Positions 17,604 through 28,773 of a stretch of DNA of 64,000 nt are shown piece after piece. Positions within the stretch are counted from its first letter, which is position 1. The number at the start of each line of letters is the position of its first letter. The stretch covers positions 881,213 to 945,212 of the forward strand of contig CALSQR010000002.1 of the NCBI GenBank assembly GCA_943788505.1. The letters run 5' to 3'. The position numbers and the translations under genes are program-made. Under the pieces are notes generated by a model that made no database searches, was not told the origin of the DNA, and saw only the letters and a program-made list of their open reading frames with translations. The stretch is from an uncultured bacterium (GTDB taxonomy: Bacteria > Bacteroidota > Rhodothermia > Rhodothermales > UBA10348).

Positions 17604-17676
17604 GGGCCCGTAGCTCAGTGGTTAGAGCTGTCGACTCATAATCGATAGGTCGCAGGTTCAAATCCTGCCGGGCCCA
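17604..17676 (+). tRNA. tRNA with CAT anticodon (tRNA-Ile2 or elongator Met)
   Basis: Complete cloverleaf: acceptor GGGCCCG/CGGGCCC, D arm GCTC-GAGC, anticodon stem GTCGA/TCGAT with loop CTCATAA (anticodon CAT), T arm GCAGG-TTCAAAT-CCTGC, and discriminator A. CCA is not encoded. Body features (GTGGTTAGAGC, CGACTCATAATCG, GGTCGC) resemble the lysidine-modified tRNA-Ile(CAU) more than initiator Met, but elongator Met cannot be ruled out. It marks the left border of the accessory region. Confidence 0.95.
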
Positions 17677-17680
17677 CAAG

Positions 17681-17720
17681 AACCCCAAGTAAGTCGTTGT
17701 GCTGCTTGGGGTTTCTTTTT
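17681..17720 (+). terminator. Intrinsic terminator after the tRNA
   Basis: Stem AACCCCAAG (17681-17689) with CTTGGGGTT (17705-17713), followed by TCTTTTT. It begins 4 nt after the tRNA 3' end. Confidence 0.9.
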
Positions 17721-17723
17721 ATG

Positions 17724-17743
17724 GGTACAACATAGGTACAACA
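17724..17743 (+). repeat. Direct repeat GGTACAACA x2
   Basis: Two exact 9-nt copies (17724-17732 and 17735-17743), 11 nt apart, directly after the tRNA terminator. Short direct repeats one helical turn apart next to a tRNA 3' end are typical of integrase arm-binding sites. No integrase gene is present in the window, so this is a suggestion only. Confidence 0.4.
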
Positions 17744-17776
17744 AAGTGCCTAAAAATTGCCCGTTTCAGTACCCCC

Positions 17777-17793
17777 GGGGTAGAGGGGTAAAG
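17777..17793 (+). repeat. Partial copy of island repeat (copy 0)
   Basis: The 17-nt segment GGGGTAGAGGGGTAAAG matches 16 of 17 bases at 21346-21362, where it follows copy B of the 40-bp island repeat. The preceding 35 nt here (beginning GTGCCTAAAAATTGCC) are only loosely similar to the repeat core. Confidence 0.55.
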
Positions 17794-17836
17794 CCGGTGT
17801 CAGGGGTTGCGGTTACCCCCGCTCAGGAATGCGCGC

Positions 17837-17887
17837 CTATTTCAGCAGCACGACCTGCTGGGTAGCCACGAAGTCTCCCGCTTCCAT
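17837..17887 (-). pseudogene. Remnant of a type IX secretion sorting-domain tail (copy 1)
   Basis: Sixteen codons plus stop: MEAGDFVATQQVVLLK. The pattern (aromatic/E)-A-G-D-F-V-x-T-x-Q-V-x-L-L-K-stop matches the extreme C-terminus of Por/T9SS type A sorting domains in this phylum. The upstream part of the domain is missing. It lies immediately after, and in the same frame as, the TAG stop of the 309-residue secreted protein gene. A near-identical peptide sits at the equivalent place after its paralog (23819-23869). It may be a fossil tail or a 3' exchange point. Confidence 0.6.
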
Positions 17888-17896
17888 TCTCTTTCG

Positions 17897-18826
17897 CTAC
17901 AGTTCGGCAATACACTCTCCTTTTACTTTGTATTGTGCCTTTGGCATGCGAGCTTCCATAAGGTCATTCAGCATCACATACTTCGTTCCGTCCATAAACT
18001 CAATGACCACTCGGTGCAGTTCAATACATGAGACGGTCTTACTTGAAAAAAAAGTGTCAAAATCATCATAAGCGCCAGTCTCCAGCGTCTTTAAGGGCCC
18101 CACGGCTCTGACAGTGATCATACTCTTGCCGGAGAAGCGGTCTACCACAGGGTCGCCCACAGGGTTGAAGGGGTGAAGTTCAAAGCTGATATACTTAATG
18201 GTCTTCTGGCCAACATTAAGTACACCAATCTGTGGGTCCAATAGGTCCAGCAAGGCATCAGGGTTGTCCATCACTAGCAAGATGGCCAAAGGGATACCCC
18301 GATCCTTCATTAATTTAGTCCATGTATTTATCGCTAATGCTTCTGCTTCTTTTACTTTGTTTTCTCTTTCCAACTCGCGTGCGCGTCTTTCATCTGCGAT
18401 ACGTTGCCTCTCTTTTTCTTCCCTTTCTCTTTCCAACTCGCGTGCGCGCTTTATTTCTGGAGGCGCCCATAGATGGCCTTGTAACTTAACGTTGTTTCGG
18501 ATGTTACGAGTCACCTTTTTGGCTTTTGGACTCATGACATAATCAACGAACTGTTGGGGGTCTGACAAGAATTCCCACCCCGTTGGGCCAATCCATCCAA
18601 TTTCACCCTGACCATTTGTTAATCGCAACCTGTTACTTTCAGCCAGATCAAAAGTGCCAAATTCCCAAGCACGTCCCCATACCCCTCCGAAGGACGTGGT
18701 CGGTGAATCATACACCAAGGCACTCTTATTATGGATTCGCGGCGTTCTTGAGGATTGGTCCTGAGCAAATACAGGTGAGCTGAGGAAAAGCAGGACGAGA
18801 AGGGTGAGTGCTGCAAGCCGATTCAT
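17897..18826 (-). CDS. Secreted conserved hypothetical protein, paralog 1
   Basis: 309 residues. Signal peptide MNRLAALTLLVLLFLSSPVFA (cleavage after AFA-like FAQ). An SH3-like N-terminal part (QGEIGWIGPTGWEFLSDPQQF) is followed by a charged coiled coil at about 120-155 containing two RARELERE repeats, from a perfect 25-bp DNA repeat. The conserved C-terminal domain carries KTIKYISFELHPFNPVGDPV, VGPLKTLETGAYDD, TVSCIEL and FMDGTKYVMLNDLMEAR. The C-terminal domain is clearly homologous to that of the 317-residue protein at 23893-24846. Function unknown; exported by Sec. If the T9SS tail just downstream was once attached, it would have been a cell-surface protein. Confidence 0.85.
   Translation of the reverse strand: MNRLAALTLLVLLFLSSPVFAQDQSSRTPRIHNKSALVYDSPTTSFGGVWGRAWEFGTFDLAESNRLRLTNGQGEIGWIGPTGWEFLSDPQQFVDYVMSPKAKKVTRNIRNNVKLQGHLWAPPEIKRARELEREREEKERQRIADERRARELERENKVKEAEALAINTWTKLMKDRGIPLAILLVMDNPDALLDLLDPQIGVLNVGQKTIKYISFELHPFNPVGDPVVDRFSGKSMITVRAVGPLKTLETGAYDDFDTFFSSKTVSCIELHRVVIEFMDGTKYVMLNDLMEARMPKAQYKVKGECIAEL
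18361..18448 (-). repeat. 25-bp direct repeat inside the 309-residue protein gene
   Basis: Identical 25-nt copies at 18361-18385 and 18424-18448, exactly 63 nt (21 codons) apart, encode RARELERE within the coiled coil. Recent internal duplication of one 21-codon coiled-coil unit is the simple explanation. Confidence 0.85.
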
Positions 18827-18927
18827 GCCTATACTGGACTATTGATTAAGTAATAGCGGGGGTGGGGGTCTCTGAAAATGCTAACATCTGCTGACATCTG
18901 CTGACATACGAAGCAATAAGGCAATCT

Positions 18928-18966
18928 GAACCAACGCGCCAAAAGCCATCATTGCTGACGGCTTGG
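18928..18966 (+). repeat. Island repeat copy A (diverged)
   Basis: GAACCAA-n-GCGCCAAAAGCC, then a variable middle, then CTGACGGCTTGG. It aligns with copy B over 39 nt including the GAACCAA leader and lies between paralog 1 and the broken thermonuclease gene. The arms GCGCCAA(AA)GCC and GGCTTGG form an imperfect stem with unpaired A residues. Confidence 0.65.
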
Positions 18967-19127
18967 ATACAAGCCCGAGACAAGGAAGTAAAATCATTGA
19001 GGCAGTATCCGTATCATTGCTACCTTGAGAGGACAGTATTGCAAATCGGAGTGAGGAAATATCTTGAGCAAAAAAGCTCTCCAGTGCCCCGGATACCCTA
19101 TTTCATCTTTGAAAAACCAGACCTGTC

Positions 19128-20018
19128 ATGCGAGCATTTGCCTTGGGCCTTTTCATAGCCCTCACCCTTGTTGCAAACCCTGCGCTGGCCCAAAGGAACT
19201 GCGTTAAAGGGAAAGCCCTGTGGTAACTCTTGCATTGCCAAGAATAAGACCTGCCGAACAGCGACAGCCCAAGACGAAGAGTGCCACAAAGAGCACAGCT
19301 CGGCCCTCCACGCCAAGATCTGCGGCTGTTCCTTCGGGGATGAACTACGTTGCCTCCTCGCGGGGACGGGTCTATTACCCCACCGCGTGTGCCGCTTGGC
19401 GATCCTTGTCTAAGAACAATCTCAGATTCTTTGAAACAGCGGAAGATGCTGTTTCCGCGGGCTACACGTTTACTACCAACTCAGCTTGTGGAAAAGACCC
19501 GTTGATTGGTAAAGAAAAGGAAGGAGACAAGCGAGGAGGCAGAACAGGCCGAATTACCGTTATCCTCCCTATCGCTCTCCTACGAATCCCTTGAGGACTT
19601 TTGTGTAGTAAAGTCGGTCACCGACGGAGATACTATAAAATGTGATGACGATAGAGTTGTCAGATTGCTACTTATTGATGCACCTGAAATGGGACAAGCA
19701 CCATTCGGGGAAGTGTCAAAGACGTACCTATCTCAGCTGGCTCCCCTTGGGGTGCGGCTTGGTCTTGCGAAGGATATTGATGAAACCGATCGCTACGGAA
19801 GAACCTTGGCTCATCTCGTTTCCCCAGATGGATCCATCGTCAACGAAAAAATGTTGCGTGCTGGATTAGCGGTGGTTTCAGTTTATCCACCAAATGTTTG
19901 GATGGTGGACGAGTACCGTAGTGTGGCGAAGGACTCTAAATCAAACAAGCGTGGATTGTGGGCATTGAACGGGTTTGCTTGTCTGCCATCGGATTTTCGG
20001 TCCAAATTATGCCAATGA
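19128..20018 (+). pseudogene. Frameshifted secreted thermonuclease (SNase) gene
   Basis: Three consecutive frames together make one sensible protein. Frame A starts at 19128 with a signal peptide (MRAFALGLFIALTLVANPALA) and NCVKGK. Frame B continues with KPCGNSCIAKNKTCR. Frame C has a Ser/Thr/Pro linker, then an Ada-like zinc segment YVASSRGRVYYPTACAAWRS to about 19500. The last frame (19506-20018) has a staphylococcal-nuclease domain with VTDGDTIKCDDDRVVRLLLIDAPE and DRYGRTLAHLV. All three shifts are in the same direction (one extra base each, near 19217, 19255-19330 and about 19500). The nuclease part alone could still be translated from an internal start. Read errors are the main alternative to true decay. 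Confidence 0.75.
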
Positions 20019-20125
20019 AGCCTGTACTTTCAAATAGTGCTACCAGAAATCGCCTAACCCTAATAGTTAGAAGCCATTTGAAAAGACACACGGGCCGAGA
20101 TATACCTACGTAAGAAATCGTTTAA

Positions 20126-20353
20126 TTGAGCAATTCATTAGTTACACGAACATGCCCGATATGTGGTGAACAGCGAGCTAAGGATCAGTCCCTTTGCTCA
20201 GGATGCGCCTATTCCTGTGAGGCGGGAAAGGTGATTGAAACGAGCGGGAAATCGGGACCTCAGGGTGACGATTCGGCAATAGGATGCGCCATGTTCGCCT
20301 TCTTTATTTTTATTGTCTTTTTGATCATAGCAGCTCATTATGAAAGATTATGA
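20126..20353 (+). CDS. Small zinc-ribbon membrane protein
   Basis: 75 residues from a TTG start. A zinc ribbon (CPICGEQRAKDQSLCSGC) is followed by a linker and a C-terminal transmembrane helix (IGCAMFAFFIFIVFLIIAAH). Its last codon overlaps the start of the next gene by 4 nt (ATGA), indicating translational coupling and a joint function. I recognise no named family; the layout suggests a membrane-tethered zinc-binding partner of the downstream protein. Confidence 0.7.
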   Translation: MSNSLVTRTCPICGEQRAKDQSLCSGCAYSCEAGKVIETSGKSGPQGDDSAIGCAMFAFFIFIVFLIIAAHYERL

Positions 20354-21234
20354 GGTCTGTAGACTACACCGCGATTTACAGCGCCCCTCTTGCCCGTCTA
20401 CAAAATTCAGACAGCAAGTTGATGATGTCAAATCTTCAGGAGGCATCCAAAATGCTTCAAGAAGTTGACCGGCGAATAGAAAAAGCAATATGCGATCGGG
20501 ATAAGATGGAGGCGAACTTGTCAAAAGTGAGCGCGAGTAAGCTTCGTCGCGTTTTGACCCGCTCTTCTACAATTGACCTATGGAACGACGCCAGTCTTAC
20601 CCACATGGTTGAGATTACCCAGCTGGAGGACGTCAAAACCGAGATTGAATCCACCTTATTTCTACCTACGCTACCTTACAGCGAAGAGAAGTTTCAAATT
20701 CTTCTGGAAGCATTTGAGCACGTTAGAAAATGTGAACGCATCTGGGATGTTACAGGTGTCTCTGGGGATACACACTACAAGTCGTCGGCAAACGAAGCCC
20801 TCGAAAGAGTTAGGGTCTCTCTTGGATACCGTTCGGTTTTGCAAGCTCACCCAAAGTACAGGGGACTTCATTTTCCCAATTCAAATGGGCCTGATATCAT
20901 CATTTACCCACGTCACATGGTCCTGTATAACTCGGGTGATGACTTTGGTGTCGTCTCATTAAAATCTGTGATCGTATCGTTTTTAGCCACACGCTTTCAG
21001 GAAGATGGATATGTTCCCTCAGACAGTATACAAGCCGGGTCAACATGGACTTACGTCAATCAAGATGGGTCGCCTGATCGTCGTTTTGCTCATAATCCAA
21101 TGGTCCCCATTATGCTGTATGGAGACATTGGTTTTACATCACCCAATGGTCTCAATGAAAGGGTTCAAGTAAGTAATCTTGCCAGTGCTGCCGAGTTTGT
21201 TAAAGCCTTTAATGAGTATTCAGCTTCTACTTGA
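20350..21234 (+). CDS. Hypothetical protein with conserved C-terminal domain
   Basis: 294 residues, soluble. The N-terminal ~120 residues are predicted coiled coil (LQEASKMLQEVDRRIEKAIC ... LEDVKTEIESTLFLPTLPYS). The C-terminal ~120 residues form a compact domain: PDIIIYPRHMVLYN, then TWTYVNQDGSPDRRFAHN, PIMLYGDIGFTSPNGLNERV. Similar C-terminal segments occur in several uncharacterised bacterial proteins, as far as I recall. Coupled to the upstream zinc-ribbon gene and located between island repeats A and B. A defence or regulatory role is possible from context only. Confidence 0.75.
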   Translation: MRSVDYTAIYSAPLARLQNSDSKLMMSNLQEASKMLQEVDRRIEKAICDRDKMEANLSKVSASKLRRVLTRSSTIDLWNDASLTHMVEITQLEDVKTEIESTLFLPTLPYSEEKFQILLEAFEHVRKCERIWDVTGVSGDTHYKSSANEALERVRVSLGYRSVLQAHPKYRGLHFPNSNGPDIIIYPRHMVLYNSGDDFGVVSLKSVIVSFLATRFQEDGYVPSDSIQAGSTWTYVNQDGSPDRRFAHNPMVPIMLYGDIGFTSPNGLNERVQVSNLASAAEFVKAFNEYSAST

Positions 21235-21296
21235 TTCAACTTTTTCACACCCGAGGTCATGCCAGATCCCACCGCCTCCCTTTTGCAGAACGCAAA

Positions 21297-21362
21297 GAAC
21301 CAAAGCGCCAAAAGCCGCCAGTAAACTGACAGCTTGGCGTGACGTGGGGTAGAGGGGCAAAG
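21297..21362 (+). repeat. Island repeat copy B with trailing segment
   Basis: The core is 21305-21344 (40 nt, GCGCCAAAAGCC...GCTTGGCGTGACG), 38/40 identical to copy C. It is preceded by GAACCAA (as in copy A) and followed by the 17-nt GGGGTAGAGGGGCAAAG (as at 17777). It can fold: GCGCCAA(AA)GC pairs with GCTTGGCGT, with an inner CAGT-AA-ACTG stem. It separates the module at 19.1-21.2 kb from the restriction module. Confidence 0.85.
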
Positions 21363-21422
21363 AGTGAAGATTGATATGTTGCTCCTCCTTCCTTAGTCTG
21401 TGAGAAATCAGACTTGGTTACT

Positions 21423-21773
21423 ATGGATATCACTCGTTGGCAGAGCCGATTGGCTGAATTCGCCAGAGAACGAGACTGGGATCAGTTTCACACGCCGAAA
21501 AATTTGGCGGCGGCCCTTTCCGTTGAGGCAGCAGAGCTTCTGGAGGTGTTTCAGTGGCTCACAGCCGAACAATCCTCTGCCTCAATACTGTCCGAGAAAG
21601 CTCGCGGCAAAGTAAAAGAAGAAATAGCCGACGTCGCCATATACCTGCTGCGCCTATGTGACATATTAGAGCTTGACCTTGAATCAGCGATTGAGGAGAA
21701 GCTGAAGATCAACGAGCAGAAATATCCTGTTGACTTGTCGCGGGGTAATGCTATCAAGTACACAGACCGATGA
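21423..21773 (+). CDS. MazG-like nucleotide pyrophosphohydrolase
   Basis: 116 residues from the ATG at 21423 (MDITRWQSRLAEFARERDWD); a TTG at 21414 would add three residues. It is a single all-helical MazG-like domain with the Mg-binding pattern SVEAAELLE (about residues 35-43) and KEEIADVAIYLL (about 65-76). It is closest in style to the small dCTP-pyrophosphatase/RS21-C6 group, which hydrolyse (modified) dNTPs to dNMP and pyrophosphate. Its stop overlaps the start of the EVE-like-HNH nuclease gene by 4 nt. The coupling to a modification-dependent nuclease suggests it acts on modified nucleotides in the same defence (inference). Confidence 0.88.
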   Translation: MDITRWQSRLAEFARERDWDQFHTPKNLAAALSVEAAELLEVFQWLTAEQSSASILSEKARGKVKEEIADVAIYLLRLCDILELDLESAIEEKLKINEQKYPVDLSRGNAIKYTDR

Positions 21774-22738
21774 ATGTCATTCTGCAACCCGCCGGGAATA
21801 AGGGAGGCAGGGAACACTACGTGGATACTGTAGCCAACTTGGTGCCACTTACTACAATAGTACCCCTTGCCCCCCTTGAAATCCGTGAATCAATCAATTC
21901 AACCTATCTTCAGGGCGCCGCGGCCATGTGGGGAGTGACAGCAGGCAAAAAGAACGTAAACGTTAGTAAGTGGGAGAAAATATCACCGGGGGACATGGCG
22001 TTGTTTGCACAAGACAAGTTCCTGCGATCTGCAGCCGTAGTAACCCACAAGTTCCACAGTAGAGAACTCGCATCTATGCTCTGGGGCGAGCTTCCCGATG
22101 GTGACACGTGGGAGTATGTGTATTTGCTGAAAGACGTTAGACAAGTAAACATACCCGATGAGCGCTTCAACCAGATTGCAGGGTATGCCCCAAATGCTCG
22201 CAGACAGGGTTTTACCGTTATGAAGCCGGAGGTCAGTGCGAAGGTAATAGAATACTTCGGCCTCTATGGTGATGTGCAGGCAGAAATTGAGGGTAGGTCG
22301 GCTCTTGAAGATGAAATAGACCGCGAGTATGCACCAGAGGGTTCGCTTGACTTGCCCCGCCTTAGTTCATCCCGCAAGGAACAAGCCTATCACCGATCTC
22401 GGCTACTAAGGGGAGGTGATATCGGGGAGTGCGCAATATGTGGCAAAACGTTGCCGAAGGAATTTTTGGTAGCAGCCCACATCAAAAAGCGTGAGCACTG
22501 TACGCGAGATGAGCGACTTAACAACCACGTCGTCATGCTTAACTGTAAGCTTGGCTGTGATACTCTCTACGAGGAAGGATACGTGGTAGTGATTGACGGT
22601 CTCGTGCAGGCTGGGCGTTCTGCGTCCGGCAACCTCGCAGTGATGGAGGCGGTCAAGATGGTTGCTGGGCGAGAGTGCAAGGCATGGAATTCAAGCTCAC
22701 AAACGTTTTTTGAATGGTACCATGGGTACCAATCTTGA
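21770..22738 (+). CDS. EVE/PUA-like domain HNH endonuclease, predicted modification-dependent restriction enzyme
   Basis: 322 residues. The N-terminal ~150 residues show an EVE/PUA-like fold (MWGVTAGKKNVNVSKWEKIS, PGDMALFAQDKFL, DTWEYVYLLKDV) as used to read modified cytosines. The C-terminal HNH domain has CAICGKTLPKEFLVAAHIKK, then NHVVMLNCKLGCDTLYEEG with the paired cysteines, catalytic His and Asn. The predicted action is cleavage of DNA containing modified bases (type IV-like). It is coupled to the MazG-like gene and followed 91 nt later by an SRA-HNH gene. Specificity cannot be read from sequence. Confidence 0.85.
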   Translation: MNVILQPAGNKGGREHYVDTVANLVPLTTIVPLAPLEIRESINSTYLQGAAAMWGVTAGKKNVNVSKWEKISPGDMALFAQDKFLRSAAVVTHKFHSRELASMLWGELPDGDTWEYVYLLKDVRQVNIPDERFNQIAGYAPNARRQGFTVMKPEVSAKVIEYFGLYGDVQAEIEGRSALEDEIDREYAPEGSLDLPRLSSSRKEQAYHRSRLLRGGDIGECAICGKTLPKEFLVAAHIKKREHCTRDERLNNHVVMLNCKLGCDTLYEEGYVVVIDGLVQAGRSASGNLAVMEAVKMVAGRECKAWNSSSQTFFEWYHGYQS

Positions 22739-22829
22739 GCTCTATGATCCTCAAGGGCGGATTGGCTTTAAGAAGAGAGCCGCTCGTTTCGTACTAAGCA
22801 GCCCAAAGTAGAAATTTGTCCTCGACATC

Positions 22830-23687
22830 ATGGCCCTGATCAAAAGTATTGCAATTGGAACGAGCTACGCGAGTCGTAGAGAACTTCATGACGCTGGCAT
22901 CCACCGTGGTCTGATGCGTGGGATCGCACCTAAGGGCGAGTCCATTGTTTTGTCAGGTGGTTACGTAGATGACCAAGATTTTGGGGATGAAATCATATAC
23001 ACAGGGGAGGGTGGCAGAGATGCTTCCTCTGGGCGGCAAGTTGGGCATCAGACATTGACAGGCGGCAATCTTTACTTGGCTCAAAACTGCCAGAACGGAG
23101 TGCTTGTCAGAGTATCTCGTGGCCACAAGTCAGAATCGTCCTTCCGGCCCGAAAGTGGTTATCGCTACGACGGTGAGTACCGCGTGGAGGAATTCTGGAA
23201 GGAGCTTGGTGTTGATGGCTTCAACATTTGGAGATTTCGACTCGTCGCGGTGGCCGGAAGAAGTAACGTCTTTAGCTCGGCGGCAGCAGTTGATTCCGAC
23301 CTGCACTTGACCCCGCTTGGTAGCAATCAGCCAGACCGTACTGAAAGCTTGGTGAGCCGTGTAATCAGGAACTCTGCCGTCAGTGAGCAGCTGAAGTCCA
23401 TGTATGACTTTACATGCCAACGGTGTGGGATTCGTATTGAAACACCAGCTGGACCATATGCAGAGTGCTGCCACATCAGGGGACTGGGTAGACCGCATAA
23501 CGGGCCAGATGTCATAGGTAATGTTCTTTGCCTGTGCCCCAATTGTCACGTTGGTTTTGACTACGGCGCTTGGAGCGTCGGGCCTGACCTAAAGGACACC
23601 TCAACCGGTAAGCAGTTGCTCGTTTCAAGCAAGCATGCGCTTGATGCTGAGCACATCAGGTACCACTACGCCAAAAGCCGCCAGTAA
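22830..23687 (+). CDS. SRA (YDG)-HNH modification-dependent restriction endonuclease
   Basis: 285 residues. SRA/YDG domain at about 25-160: YTGEGGRDASSGRQVGHQTL, VRVSRGHK, and the YRYDGEYRVEEFW signature. SRA domains bind and flip 5-methyl- or 5-hydroxymethylcytosine. A C-terminal HNH nuclease follows: CQRCGIRIE, ECCHIRGLG, then NVLCLCPNCHVGFDYGA. Together this is the typical build of type IV restriction enzymes. Its last codons (Ala-Lys-Ser-Arg-Gln-stop) lie inside island repeat copy C, so the module boundary falls exactly at the gene end. Confidence 0.93.
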   Translation: MALIKSIAIGTSYASRRELHDAGIHRGLMRGIAPKGESIVLSGGYVDDQDFGDEIIYTGEGGRDASSGRQVGHQTLTGGNLYLAQNCQNGVLVRVSRGHKSESSFRPESGYRYDGEYRVEEFWKELGVDGFNIWRFRLVAVAGRSNVFSSAAAVDSDLHLTPLGSNQPDRTESLVSRVIRNSAVSEQLKSMYDFTCQRCGIRIETPAGPYAECCHIRGLGRPHNGPDVIGNVLCLCPNCHVGFDYGAWSVGPDLKDTSTGKQLLVSSKHALDAEHIRYHYAKSRQ

Positions 23688-23707
23688 ACTGACAGCTTAG
23701 CGTGACG
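23668..23707 (+). repeat. Island repeat copy C
   Basis: 40-nt core, 38/40 identical to copy B (differences at the first base and in CTTAG/CTTGG). It overlaps the 3' end and stop codon of the SRA-HNH gene. Spacing of cores A-B and B-C is 2369 and 2363 nt. Confidence 0.85.
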
Positions 23708-23818
23708 CGTAGGACAAAGCACTGAGGCCAGTAACCCACGCGTCAAGTTAGTTGATATGTATCGCTACGAACGCGCCGTAGCGCTGGTCAGGGGCTATGA
23801 GGGGCTCATACGAGCCTG

Positions 23819-23869
23819 CTACTTCAGCAATGTGACTTGTCTGGTCTGAACGAAGTCACCTGCTTTCAC
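23819..23869 (-). pseudogene. Remnant of a type IX secretion sorting-domain tail (copy 2)
   Basis: Sixteen codons plus TAG from a GTG: (V)KAGDFVQTRQVTLLK. Compared with copy 1 the peptide is conserved while many third codon positions differ, so it was selected as protein. It lies 23 nt after the stop of paralog 2, in a different frame from it. It matches the C-terminal end of Por/T9SS type A sorting domains. Confidence 0.6.
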
Positions 23870-23892
23870 TTAAAACCAGCGGCCCCATTTGG

Positions 23893-24846
23893 TTATCTCA
23901 GCTGGCATTCGCCCTTGATCTTGTAATTCAATGGATTTCGCCTAGCATCGGCAAGATCATCCTGCATTATGTATTTGGAGCCATCAAAATATTCGATTTC
24001 CACTTTCAAGAGCTCTATGCAGCTAACAGTCCCAGCGTAGATTACAGGATCATTGCTCGAACCGTACACGGCAATGTCGCCCTCAGCAATCGGGCCGACA
24101 CCCCGGAATGAGAAAACTGAACTCTCAGAGTACCTACCGACGACAGGATCACCCACGCTATTGAAGGATCGCAGGCTAAACGTAGTGTACTTGACAGTCT
24201 TATCGTCCAGGTTTACCACTGATACCACTGGGGCCACGCCGTCGGCACTGTTCACGCTGAATCGCACGGAAGGGACATAAGCCGGAATTCCTTTTGATCC
24301 TAAGGCCTCGAGGAAAGCTGTTCTCTCTGTATCAAGATCGACTTTGCGAGAACTGGTACTGAATCGCTCAACTGCTTGGTCGAGATATTCCCTCGATGCT
24401 GCATTGTTTATCGTATCAGAATAAAGCGCCAGAAATGCCGTTGGGTCTTCCATGAAGTCGAACGCATTGGACGAAATCCACCCTTGTTCACCTGTGTCGG
24501 AAATGAAATACGCTCGTCTTGATTGGAATCTACCAGTCAGAGTGCCCTGAACGTCGGTTAGTGTTGTGAAAGACGAGAGGTTACGTGGCCCTGAATACAA
24601 TCCACTACCAATAGTCATTACTTTGATGCCACCATCGGAGTCCATTTCTGCAATCGCAATAATTTTTTTGAGAGAGTCAATCTTTCCCAAAGCAACGATT
24701 CGCAGTGCATCGAGGCTGTCAATTTTCTCCGATAACTCTGAAACAGTTGCTTCCAGGCTCACTTTCTCTATCAATGGCGATTGAGCGTTTCCAGTTCGAG
24801 AAAACAGCAGCAAAGTGAGAAGAAGAAGTCTTATCGAGTATGGCAT
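23893..24846 (-). CDS. Secreted conserved hypothetical protein, paralog 2
   Basis: 317 residues. Signal peptide MPYSIRLLLLTLLLFSRTGNA; short coiled coil at about 28-65 (VSELSEKIDSLDALRIVALG); SH3-like part with GEQGWISSNAFDFMEDPTAF; and the same C-terminal domain as paralog 1: KTVKYTTFSLRSFNSVGDPV, GVGPIAEGDIAVYG, TVSCIELLKVEIEYFDGSKY. The two proteins bracket the island and share the downstream T9SS-tail remnant. Function unknown; exported. Confidence 0.85.
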   Translation of the reverse strand: MPYSIRLLLLTLLLFSRTGNAQSPLIEKVSLEATVSELSEKIDSLDALRIVALGKIDSLKKIIAIAEMDSDGGIKVMTIGSGLYSGPRNLSSFTTLTDVQGTLTGRFQSRRAYFISDTGEQGWISSNAFDFMEDPTAFLALYSDTINNAASREYLDQAVERFSTSSRKVDLDTERTAFLEALGSKGIPAYVPSVRFSVNSADGVAPVVSVVNLDDKTVKYTTFSLRSFNSVGDPVVGRYSESSVFSFRGVGPIAEGDIAVYGSSNDPVIYAGTVSCIELLKVEIEYFDGSKYIMQDDLADARRNPLNYKIKGECQLR

Positions 24847-24902
24847 TCAAGTATCCTCCGTATCCATTATCCAATAATTACAAGTTGAGTGGCGAGACCC
24901 CT

Positions 24903-25455
24903 TTAAAAGGCAATCCATTGCCCGCACTCTTCGTCAGATTCAAAGCCCAGATCAGTTGAAGATATTTCAACAAGAACCTGCCCAGCCGAGTCGACATAAT
25001 CGTTTGCAAAATACACCACTGAGAATGCTTCCTCCGAAATTTCTAAGTCGAGCCCAGTAGCACCCCTCACTGTTTGTCGCCCGATATCTACCTGGTTGGA
25101 TTTGCTGGTTAACGAGCCAAACTCCTGGGCGTATACCGACCTGCATACCCTCAGTGGGAGTTTTTGACCATTCACCGCACTCTGTATCTGTGCTAAATGC
25201 TAAGTCTGTCTGGTCAATCTCTACAATCCACTGAACTGCGTCGAAGTCAATAAACTCATTTGCGAGAATATCGCTGAGTTCGCCCCCAAGACCTGATAAT
25301 CGTGCGAAATAACATCCTTCTTTGGGGTTTGTAAAGTACCTCCCAGGAACGATGTCTTCTCCTACCAAAAGAGTGCCTGTGCGGAAAGACTCTTTGGGAG
25401 GTTCAGCTTCAAAGGCAGACGGTTCGCTACCACTCCACAACAACCATAGCACCAT
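24903..25455 (-). pseudogene. Frameshifted two-repeat secreted protein gene
   Basis: Two tandem ~75-residue domains. The first is intact (FRTGTLLVGEDIVPGRYFTN, GCYFARLSGLGGELSDI, FSTDTECGEW). The second (GIRPGVWLVNQQIQPGRYRA, GCYWARLRNFGGS) breaks near 25015 and continues in another frame with FANDYVDSAGQVLVEISSTD and FESDEECGQW. Joined, the two frames give a complete second repeat. The 5' end overlaps the DoxX-like gene by 29 nt, so the original leader or lipobox may be lost. Such repeats occur in secreted lipoproteins of unknown role. A sequencing error would also explain the single shift. Confidence 0.7.
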
Positions 25456-25783
25456 ACACGGCTATCCAAACAGTGATGATGGCGAAAACGAGCGCCTGAA
25501 GCATCTCCACAAACGAATCGCGTTGTTGAATTCGTTGGATGACAACCATTGTCATGAGGATTCCGAGGCCGGCAGCCGCTATCACTCGAAGGGGAGGGAA
25601 TAAAAACCCGGCAGCAAGACCCACCGCGCCTGATATCTCTAGCACACCTGTGAGTACGCGAAAACGAGACAATCCGAAACGTTCGAACTCCAACCTCATG
25701 GCATCAGACCACAGGCAAGCTGCTCCGTAATAAAGAAACAGAAGACTGGTAAAAACGCTGATTACGTGGTATAGTAGAATCAT
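25427..25783 (-). CDS. DoxX-like four-helix membrane protein
   Basis: 118 residues, MILLYHVISVFTSLLFLYYG, with four hydrophobic helices (about 3-20, 45-62, 68-83, 93-114). It resembles the DoxX/DoxD-like superfamily. Function of these small proteins is unclear; some take part in quinone-linked oxidation. It is divergent from another DoxX-like gene 67 nt away, so the two may share a control region. Confidence 0.75.
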   Translation of the reverse strand: MILLYHVISVFTSLLFLYYGAACLWSDAMRLEFERFGLSRFRVLTGVLEISGAVGLAAGFLFPPLRVIAAAGLGILMTMVVIQRIQQRDSFVEMLQALVFAIITVWIAVYGAMVVVEW

Positions 25784-25850
25784 AGTGGGTCAACCTCGCA
25801 AAAGGGCATCCGTTTCACCCATACTAACAGTTCACAAGTCAAGACTAACC

Positions 25851-26219
25851 ATGCCTGATTTCTCCATAACTGCCGTTCTTCAACTCATTGTCGCTGTTGG
25901 CCTCTTAAATGTTTGGCTCATCCGGTCAAAGTCAGCCACCTCTTATCGTGGTGGACAGGCCAAATCACTGAAGGAAGAATTCGATGCTTACGGATTGCCA
26001 TCGGTCGCTTTTTTTATTGTAGGAGCCTTGAAAATTGGCGCCGCTGTTGCGCTCATTGTTGGCTTTTGGATGCCAGAGCTAATCCAGCCATCAGCCACTA
26101 TTGTAGCTGTTCTCATGGTAGGAGCCTTCGTCATGCATGTGAAAGTAGGTGATCCGATTGTGAAATCGGTCCCGGCCTTACTCATGCTTGCCATGTCAGC
26201 CGGTATTCTCTGGTTATAA
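25851..26219 (+). CDS. DoxX-like membrane protein
   Basis: 122 residues from the ATG at 25851 (MPDFSITAVLQLIVAVGLLN). The frame extends to 25785, but the added residues are not hydrophobic or conserved in style. Four helices, with KSLKEEFDAYGLPSVAFFIVG typical of DoxX-like proteins. It is divergent from the other DoxX-like gene, and the two are only distantly alike. Membrane location is certain; role unknown. Confidence 0.8.
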   Translation: MPDFSITAVLQLIVAVGLLNVWLIRSKSATSYRGGQAKSLKEEFDAYGLPSVAFFIVGALKIGAAVALIVGFWMPELIQPSATIVAVLMVGAFVMHVKVGDPIVKSVPALLMLAMSAGILWL

Positions 26220-26413
26220 CTCCAGAGCGGCTTCTGCGAAGAAAAATGCTGGCCTGTTTTGGTCCCCGATTCGATGTGGAATTCAGTGCGGGAGACTTGT
26301 ATATCTCTGTTTCCCAACATGGCAAGTCAAGCGGACGCTGGCCGTAGGCGCGTCCTGGTTCAGCGAGTCCCCTCGGTGCTGGACACCTCTCGGCCGCTCT
26401 AGACAATATCGTT

Positions 26414-26899
26414 ATGAACACACTTCCTCGTGCTCTCCTTTTCTTGCTTCTTGCCGTCGCTTTCCTCCTGCCGCAAAAGACGTTTGCTCAATCCGAGGAG
26501 GAAGCCGTTCTGGCGGTAGCCCAAAAAGTTTTCGATGGCATCAACACCAAGAATGCGGACCTTATTCGGACGAACATGACGCCCGAGGCTATTCTCTACG
26601 CGACGGTCAACGGAGTAGCACGCCATTCAAGTCTTGAAGATTTTACATCTCAAGTTGCCGGCGCCAGCGATGCATTTCACGAACGAATGTTTGAGTCCAC
26701 AGTCCACATTCAGGATGGAATCGCTATGATATGGGCTGATTACGACTTCCACGTAAACGGCACGTTCAGCCACTGCGGCGTGGACACGTTTTCACTCGTC
26801 AAAACACCAGAAGGCTGGAAAGTGGCCTCGTTGATCTACACCGTGCAACAAGAAGGGTGCGTATCACGCCCACCGATCCCGACCAGCCCAGGTAACTGA
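26414..26899 (+). CDS. Secreted NTF2-like (DUF4440/SnoaL-type) protein
   Basis: 161 residues. Signal peptide MNTLPRALLFLLLAVAFLLP...FAQ, then an NTF2-like cone fold: VLAVAQKVFDGINTKNADLI, MTPEAILYATVNG, MIWADYDFHVNG, and GWKVASLIYTVQQEGC. Periplasmic. Such domains are small-molecule binding pockets or enzymes of varied function, and nothing here fixes the substrate. Convergent with the CoA-transferase gene. Confidence 0.82.
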   Translation: MNTLPRALLFLLLAVAFLLPQKTFAQSEEEAVLAVAQKVFDGINTKNADLIRTNMTPEAILYATVNGVARHSSLEDFTSQVAGASDAFHERMFESTVHIQDGIAMIWADYDFHVNGTFSHCGVDTFSLVKTPEGWKVASLIYTVQQEGCVSRPPIPTSPGN

Positions 26900-26919
26900 G
26901 CGCCGCCGAGGAGCCAGTG

Positions 26920-28773
26920 TCATTCGAAGGGCATCGACAACGAATAAACATCTCCGTTCAAACGACTTTCGACGTGTGAAAAGGCGCGGTGAACCAGCGT
27001 CATCATAGCTTTGTTTTCGATGAGGACATCAGCCGTAAAGCCCGTGATACGGTTCTTCTTCGCTGCTGCTATCATCGACCCAAACAGCGCTGCCGCAATT
27101 CCTTGCCGCTGGTGGTCCCGTGAAACCAGTATGGCGATTTCAGCCATGTTTGTATGCTGATTCACGATATAACGGCCCACTCCGATAATCCTTGCATCCT
27201 CCCCTTGTCCGACACAGGCGACCATCGCCAAGTCATTTTTATAGTCGACTTGGGTGACCGATTGCAATTCCTTACGGGGGTCCGACTTGATGGTGGTGAA
27301 GAAGCGCTCGTAAATCGAGTTTTCAGGAGCAGAATAGTATAATTCGCGCATCTGCCCTTCGTCTGTTACTCTGCTGGGGCGCAACGAGATACGGATTCCT
27401 TTCGGGGTTTCATAGGACTCTTCCAACTCAAGTGGATAGCCGGTGTCGGAAAAGGACCTGTCTAGATGGTCAACGTGAACCAGGCGCCGTGCCTTAGCCT
27501 CTGCCATCAGCCATGGCCTGAATTTCGGATGCGCAATCTGGATCAAGGCGAGAGCCCGTTCGCGGACGGTTTTTCCGTAGAGGTACGCCGTGCCGTACTC
27601 TGTGACAACGTATTGAACATCGCCGCGCGTTGTTACGACGCCCGCGCCTTCATTGAGATGTGGTACGATGCGAGAAACCGTTCCTTTTGCTGCCGTGGAT
27701 GGAAGTGCGATGATTGCTTTACCTTCGTTTGCCCGCCTGGCGCCGCGCACAAAGTCTAGTTGCCCGCCAAAGCCGGAAAAGAAGCGGTCACCCAGAGAAT
27801 CCGAACAGACCTGCCCAGTAATGTCTACTTCAATCGCCGAATTGATCGATGTCATGCGGTTGTTCTGCGCGATGATAAACGGATCGTTCGTGTATTCGGA
27901 AGGACGAAACTCAATCAGTGGGTTGTTGTCGATGAAGTCGTAGAGCTCACGCGACCCCATCGCAAAACTGGATACGATCTTGCCGGGATGAAGTGTCTTG
28001 CGCGAATTGTTTACCACGCCAGACTTAATCAACGGGATAATTCCATCGGAGAACATTTCAGTGTGAACACCGAGATCTTTGTGATCCGTCAGAAAGTGCA
28101 GCACTGCATATGGAATCGAACCGATGCCAAGCTGAAGAGTGGCACCATTGGGGATTAGGCTCGCAATATTTCGCGCGATGGCCTTCGACAGATCGTCAGG
28201 CGTACCCTACTTTGCCTCGAGTAGAGGATCATCACAGGGCACCATTCGGGTAATGTTGTCCACATGGATGAAGCTGTCCCCTAAGGCACGGGGCGCGTTG
28301 CTGTTGACCTCAGCTATTACAACACGGGCTGCTTCAGCAGCGGATTTGACGATATCAGTGGCCACACCATAACTACAATACCCGTGCTCATCTGGCTCGC
28401 TGACCTGAATCAGAGCCACATCAATCAGCATGTGTTTCTTCCTGAACAACCGAGGTATTTCAGATAGAAAGATGGGTGTGTAGTCAGCATCCCCTCGCCC
28501 GATACTGTCTCGCACGTTTGTCCCGATGAAAAAGGCATTGTGCCGGAATCGTTTGCTCAGCTCAGGGCCCGCATATGGGGCGGTGCCAAGGGTCAAGATG
28601 TGGACGATCTCCGCATCGTGTACCGACGTGTTTGCAACCAGAGCGCGCACAAGGGATTGGGGTTCGGCGGCTCCCGACCCGATGAAGATGCGACGACCGT
28701 TTCCAAGGAAGGAAAGGGCCGACTCTGCATCATGGATCTTGTCCGAATAGACTTCTTTCCAGTTCGAGGACAT
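26920..28773 (-). pseudogene. Acetyl-CoA hydrolase/transferase with C-terminal GNAT domain, interrupted by in-frame TAG
   Basis: One frame of 617 codons is broken by a single TAG at 28207-28209 (after LLEAK, before GTPDDLSKAIARNIA). Both halves are collinear and in the same frame, and the join falls inside a conserved helix region. The N-terminal part (FIGSGAAEPQSLV, DVALIQVSEPDEHGYCSYG) and the middle (LQLGIGSIPYAVL, HTEMFSDGIIPL with the catalytic Glu, SGFGGQLDFVRGA) are a family I CoA-transferase of the 4-hydroxybutyrate/acetyl-CoA type. The C-terminal ~150 residues are a GNAT acetyltransferase (REDYYS-like start, DHQRQGIAAALFGSM). GAG or CAG to TAG would be one base change. Either a recent nonsense mutation, readthrough, or a sequence error. 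Confidence 0.85.

Follow-up and report, generated by a model that had tools for sequence, protein, structure and literature searches.

Type IV restriction enzymes are usually viewed as partner-free because the DNA of their host lacks the mark. Among them, EVE-HNH enzymes such as VcaM4I combine an N-terminal reader of the PUA superfamily with a C-terminal HNH nuclease domain and an H-D-D/E active site (PMC7897488). VcaM4I reads 5mC/5hmC, and mutation of H224, D250, or D254 causes its restriction to be lost or crippled. In TagI (6ghs, PMC6212794), the HNH domain is joined to an SRA domain instead. A different kind of reader is found in McrB of T. gammatolerans, an AAA+ GTPase whose N-terminal YTH domain senses 6mA (PMC7897488). 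On the side of the nucleotide pool, the closest described enzyme is human dCTP pyrophosphatase 1 (DCTPP1, or RS21-C6), which prefers dCTP and 5-modified dCTP (PMC4491611, PMC7162842). It hydrolyzes both dCTP and 5-methyl-dCTP, and a docking model has its His38 touching the cytosine (both PMC4491611).

Have such nucleases and such pyrophosphohydrolases been described together? A survey of EVE domains by Bell et al. mentions EVE-HNH but not MazG (PMC7641849), and the accessible text of the VcaM4I paper is silent on MazG. DefensePredictor lists MazG as a predicted, likely but unvalidated defense domain (PMC13092281); the accessible part of its main text contains neither this pairing nor a role. 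In the PMC literature searched, no paper was found on an EVE domain, HNH, and MazG together, on DUF2075 and MazG together, or on GIY-YIG, Schlafen, and a nucleotide pyrophosphohydrolase together, although a mention in a subscription journal is possible.

The locus described here lies in a 64,000-nucleotide stretch of DNA from an uncultured Rhodothermales bacterium, hereafter the window. Its features are as follows.

17604 to 17677, plus strand: tRNA-Met, bordering the variable locus on its left, syntenic in the same-genus genome G217.
17718 to 26931, no strand: variable locus containing the module, from comparison with same-genus G217.
21299 to 21344, plus strand: left 46-nt direct repeat, the core of a ~65-bp element.
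21423 to 21773, plus strand: maz, encoding a MazG-like all-alpha NTP pyrophosphohydrolase, DCTPP1-like (PF12643, PDB 6sqw, conserved residues).
21770 to 22738, plus strand: reader-HNH gene, encoding a predicted YTH/EVE-like reader plus HNH nuclease (phrog_14240, AlphaFold2 model, fold match, VcaM4I).
22830 to 23687, plus strand: SRA-HNH gene, encoding a TagI-like endonuclease (SAD_SRA plus HNH_2, 6ghs), an extra nuclease beside the conserved pair.
23662 to 23707, plus strand: right 46-nt direct repeat, which includes the SRA-HNH stop codon.

An earlier note on this DNA had described three genes in a repeat-bounded module, and both parts of that description hold. The open reading frames agree with the gene positions, with a 4-nt overlap (ATGA) between maz and the reader-HNH gene, and with the start of the SRA-HNH gene 91 nt farther on. 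An in-frame TTG at 21414 precedes the ATG of maz at 21423, but relatives begin at the position of the ATG, which was kept as the start. Between the three genes, no promoter- or terminator-like sites above chance were found, and no PADLOC model matches the first two proteins. The 46-nt direct repeats on both sides of the module are 91% identical to each other, whereas none would be expected by chance. Genome-wide, the strict repeat pattern has no third occurrence, but diverged copies of the ~65-bp element are present in the window (~18928) and elsewhere in the source genome, on contig C2 (G000:C2:1096188-1096248). The two copies at the module lie at 21297-21362 and 23660-23707. The element has possible hairpin arms (CGCCAAAAGC / GCTTGGCG) and separates gene groups in the tRNA-Met locus. 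An Rfam search of the repeats matched no known RNA element.

The source genome and G217 have in common a PQQ-dehydrogenase-like gene, the tRNA-Met, and the gene at 26920-28104, but the DNA between these flanks measures 9.2 kb here and, in G217, 2.8 kb of unrelated DNA with a single Ser/Thr-kinase-like gene. The module therefore sits in a variable accessory locus. Other residents of this locus include two paralogous secreted-type proteins (17897-18826 and 23893-24846, both on the minus strand) that flank the defense genes, as though by duplication of the locus or by its assembly from cassettes. There is also a Staphylococcal-nuclease-like gene at 19506-20018 (PF00565, 59.9 bits; weak PADLOC match C3a212), and directly upstream of the module, at 20350-21234, a gene for a 294-amino-acid protein that matches phrog_17982 (E 3e-38). 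A second DCTPP1-like MazG, 67% identical, is encoded elsewhere in the source genome (L131:6418-6792; G000:C2:1092468-1092773). It lacks the C-terminal end and a neighboring nuclease, and a copy of the repeat element lies ~3.4 kb off.

What kind of enzyme does maz encode? The product, ~116 residues long, scores 57.1 bits against the MazG-like family PF12643, above the family cut-off of 27, and its best solved relative is human DCTPP1 (6sqw, E 1.9e-26). In the 32 dereplicated pairs described below, the equivalents of DCTPP1 Trp47, His51, Glu63, Glu66, Trp73, Glu95, Asp98, Lys121, and Asn125 are invariant, the four acidic metal-site residues (EXXE/EXXD) among them; that of Tyr102 is present in 31. 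The metal site and the Trp47, Trp73, Tyr102, Lys, and Asn equivalents are thus held in common with DCTPP1/RS21-C6 (6sqw, 2a3q). The differences are that the maz product is smaller, is encoded in an operon with a nuclease, and has Leu in place of His38, a position occupied by Leu, Ile, or Val in all 32 pairs. It is not filed as DCTPP1 proper on account of this last substitution, despite the Trp and Tyr equivalents, and its substrate is a predicted one.

The reader-HNH protein yields only a sub-threshold HNH_2 match in Pfam and matches phrog_14240, an unnamed phage family, with an E value of 3.7e-50. An AlphaFold2 model built from 34 homologues (pLDDT 92, pTM 0.80) has VcaM4I as its first Foldseek match (E 4e-12). 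The best solved fold for residues 1-171 is the N-terminal domain of T. gammatolerans McrB (6p0g; Z 15.2, 2.7 Å, 154 residues). PH1033, an EVE protein, scores lower at Z 11.3, as does VcaM4I at Z 11.1, although the longer McrB domain inflates its Z and fold likeness does not give specificity. As modeled, the reader has a YTH/EVE-like fold, here fused to HNH rather than to an AAA+ GTPase. Its residues Trp54, Trp105, Trp114, and Tyr118 are invariant in all 32 pairs.

The HNH half gives a profile match to VcaM4I (E 4.9e-18), with H237, D264, and E268 aligned to H224, D250, and D254. H237 is found in 32 of 32 sequences; D264 and E268 are each found in 28, with His and Asp, respectively, in the other four. 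Could this be a degenerate HNH, given that the last His is replaced, and the Asn too in the window protein? VcaM4I itself uses Asp at that place, so the loss of the last His is a VcaM4I-type variant and not decay. The protein combines an N-terminal PUA-superfamily reader with a C-terminal HNH, as in the VcaM4I group, and has the same H-D-D/E active site. It departs from VcaM4I in a reader whose modeled structure scores higher against the YTH domain of TgMcrB than against EVE folds, in two Cys pairs in the HNH domain, and in the coupling to a MazG gene. Judged by its domains, the nuclease probably cuts DNA with modified bases.

The third protein is in itself ordinary. It matches SAD_SRA (126.6 bits, E 8.4e-37) and HNH_2 (34.3 bits), and it aligns with TagI (6ghs) over residues 10-281 (E 6.3e-59), so that the SRA plus HNH likeness runs along nearly the whole protein; what differs from TagI is the adjoining maz/reader-HNH pair. 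These domain and fold matches agree with the claim that two nucleases of apparently modification-dependent type and a nucleotide pyrophosphohydrolase are encoded together. Is the triple, which the earlier note singled out as a possible combined system, itself conserved? Here, the search of relatives gave a negative answer. Of those searched, only two have an SRA-HNH gene with the pair, as a frame 24 nt downstream in Streptomyces sp. NRRL B-24484 (L014) and, in a loose association, 3.3 kb downstream in S. lanatus (L023). In G229, the only same-family relative found to have the pair, SRA-HNH does not adjoin it and no SRA-HNH match was found anywhere in the genome. In the phylum sample, neither maz nor a reader-HNH gene was found within 1.5 kb of SRA-HNH genes. 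The triple is accordingly rejected as a general unit, and SRA-HNH is best regarded as a distinct type IV enzyme that shares the insertion. At L011:7284-8250, G229 has an intact maz and a reader-HNH gene with an in-frame stop. Two other loci were considered as further cases of an SRA partner and set aside: L167 has no SAD_SRA, and its sequence was judged to be that of a further EVE-like reader carrying a TagI-type HNH; in L081 an SRA domain is unsupported, the protein being HNH only.

The pairing of the first two genes fared differently. Pairs were gathered from plasmids, genome contigs, and viral contigs and dereplicated at 85% identity, which left 32. The coupling noticed in the window is kept across phyla, with maz immediately preceding the reader-HNH gene in Bacillota, Actinomycetota, Verrucomicrobiota, Pseudomonadota, and the source genome, as well as on plasmids and in prophages; the carriers are prophages, plasmids, and variable loci. 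In 30 of the 32 pairs, the distance between the genes is -32 to +15 nt, and it is +30 and +32 in the other two. Distances among the maz products and among the nucleases are correlated (Mantel r 0.89, with 0 of 2000 permutations as high; host phylogeny uncorrected). The pairing is not due to chance, and it is this pair, rather than the triple, that is conserved as a unit. It is not an obligate one. In the genome collection, maz lies directly upstream in 17 of 26 full-length reader-HNH loci; since the other nine have no maz immediately upstream, it is not essential. All nine are in Actinomycetota, and one of them has a frame-broken maz downstream.

MazG genes are also found away from nucleases, so how do the linked copies relate to these? 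MazG matches occur in 247 of 249 Streptomycetaceae genomes, and almost all are to a core copy ~57% identical to the query. Six accessory copies are 68-80% identical, and five of the six are beside a reader-HNH gene, compared with none of the core copies at 24 sampled loci. In a Pseudomonas sample, a nuclease adjoins 18 of 20 accessory copies (3 reader-HNH and 15 GIY-YIG plus Schlafen helicase) and none of 10 core copies. Core MazG thus probably serves in house-cleaning, and what sets the linked copies apart is their partners.

Those partners are of several kinds. In 32 loci, MazG of the same type directly adjoins a GIY-YIG plus Schlafen-type helicase gene (PF09848), and the phylum of the window supplies 16 of these. 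It is also beside MrcB_N-HNH (L121, L164), an EVE-like reader with a TagI-type HNH (L167), and an EVE-like reader with a nuclease-like C terminus (L106, which has no Pfam match and was judged from sequence). A second family of EVE-like-reader HNH proteins is partnered in L129 and the L132 group; its structure model is of low confidence (pLDDT 68.5) and supports only a fold of EVE/YTH type. Phages pair this type of MazG with SNF2-like/DNA-methylase proteins in 13 loci, the methylase being Pfam-confirmed in L157, and MazG may therefore also have a part in the modification of phage DNA. On a MazG tree of 122 columns, mostly unresolved, supported branches require five or more changes of the reader-HNH label, and partners have therefore been exchanged. 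A dedicated clade of nuclease-linked MazG is unsupported on the same tree.

Some of these loci deserve description in their own right. The GIY-YIG plus Schlafen loci with MazG directly upstream (L094-L104, L107-L109, L111, L112, L281, L284, and L286-L298) look like a separate conserved pair. The phage methylase-type loci include L137, L157, L166, L168, L171, L173, L176, L179, L184, and L196. In L129 (Vibrio phage 10N.286.55.A5_PE003, 1885-6636), the EVE-like-HNH and MazG genes overlap, with another HNH gene before them and genes annotated HEPN and REase after them, in a defense hot spot near an integrase.

What might the two proteins do together? The best explanation, held tentatively and at a little less than even chances, is a two-gene type IV restriction unit with a nucleotide-pool (sanitation) enzyme, accompanied by an independent SRA-HNH. 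The comparisons above show the coupling, its conservation, the folds, the conserved catalytic residues, and the exchange of partners, whereas the substrates, the defense activity, and the sanitation role are inferred. The HNH protein would flip a modified base into the aromatic pocket of its YTH/EVE-like domain and cut that DNA. The co-translated MazG would hydrolyze dNTPs with modified bases to the monophosphates, 5-modified dCTP being the likeliest substrate. Its most likely purpose would be to stop modified nucleotides from entering host DNA, whether they come from the breakdown of phage DNA or from synthesis by phage enzymes; without such sanitation, modified nucleotides in newly made host DNA would expose the host to the nuclease. 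SRA-HNH would act as an independent TagI-like enzyme on 5mC/5hmC DNA and widen the range of phages covered. Sanitation is preferred for four reasons, the last three of them inferential. (i) DCTPP1 enzymes favor 5-modified dCTP (PMC4491611, PMC7162842). (ii) MazG is presumably translated first, and in coupled fashion. (iii) Hydrolysis of modified dCTP as an attack would erase the mark that the nucleases need. (iv) The loci lacking a linked maz are all in the phylum in which core MazG is near-universal, at least in Streptomycetaceae. Several observations pull the other way. The His38 equivalent is Leu, Ile, or Val throughout, and the closest solved reader is the TgMcrB domain, which binds 6mA and beside which a dCTP enzyme makes less sense. 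The linked copy persists in prophage carriers and in Pseudomonas, even though the latter also has a core MazG, and the pairings with phage DNA methylases mean that MazG is not exclusive to nucleases.

The first two of these objections lead to a rather unlikely alternative, in which the mark read is N6-methyladenine or some other one not on cytosine, the substrate of MazG is another nucleotide, and SRA-HNH covers cytosine marks separately. In the fold comparison the reader scores higher against the YTH domain of TgMcrB than against PH1033 (Z 15.2 versus 11.3), this YTH domain senses 6mA (PMC7897488), and the missing His38 equivalent fits a MazG with another substrate. Nevertheless, fold does not give specificity, the length of the McrB domain inflates the Z, and the HNH half is like that of VcaM4I, an enzyme that reads 5mC/5hmC.

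Unlikely, too, is the attack envisaged in the earlier note, in which MazG strips modified dCTP or dCTP so that modified-cytosine phages cannot rebuild their modified DNA while the two nucleases cut incoming DNA. The action of DCTPP1 on dCTP and 5-methyl-dCTP (PMC4491611), the conserved catalytic and stacking residues, and the linkage to nucleases are all compatible with it. However, less modified dCTP would leave less of the mark for the nucleases, placing the two arms of the attack partly in opposition, and the cytosine specificity of the modeled reader is only putative with TgMcrB YTH as its closest fold. Because that closest solved fold is a 6mA-reading YTH domain, joint action on modified cytosine is unproven.

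Defenses based on dCTP deaminase and dGTPase halt replication by nucleotide depletion. MazG could conceivably be such an effector, triggered by infection or by the action of the nuclease to drain dCTP and stop replication. Co-translation, the switching among many nuclease partners, and the place of MazG among the unvalidated domains predicted in the accessible DefensePredictor text (PMC13092281) speak for this. It is improbable, since no sensor or switch is visible in so small a protein and a core paralogue is evidently tolerated in nearly all of the sampled Streptomycetaceae genomes. Least probable is that MazG is an ordinary house-cleaning gene functionally unrelated to the nuclease: unrelated genes do accumulate in defense islands, and most sampled Streptomycetaceae and Pseudomonas genomes have a core MazG without a nuclease partner, but this fits poorly with the fixed order and overlap across phyla, the correlated divergence, and the contrast between accessory and core copies in Pseudomonas.

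Overall, what is worth keeping from this locus is the maz plus reader-HNH pair and the recurrent pairing of this type of MazG with different nucleases, not the triple. The pair suggests an undescribed two-part anti-phage defense, with the sanitation reading named above as the preferred account of its second part. It is possible, if on balance doubtful, that MazG/DCTPP1-like enzymes serve modification-dependent restriction generally as its second component, acquired separately by several unrelated reader-nuclease types (at least two kinds of YTH/EVE-HNH, MrcB_N-HNH, and GIY-YIG with Schlafen helicase) and either protecting the host against its own nuclease or denying modified nucleotides to the phage. 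If true, type IV restriction would gain a two-component class. For MazG, flagged for defense without a mechanism, the pairing adds a role that can be assigned. For the nucleases, the recurrence of a nucleotide-pool enzyme beside type IV enzymes suggests that modified nucleotides in the pool either endanger the host or are a second phage target.
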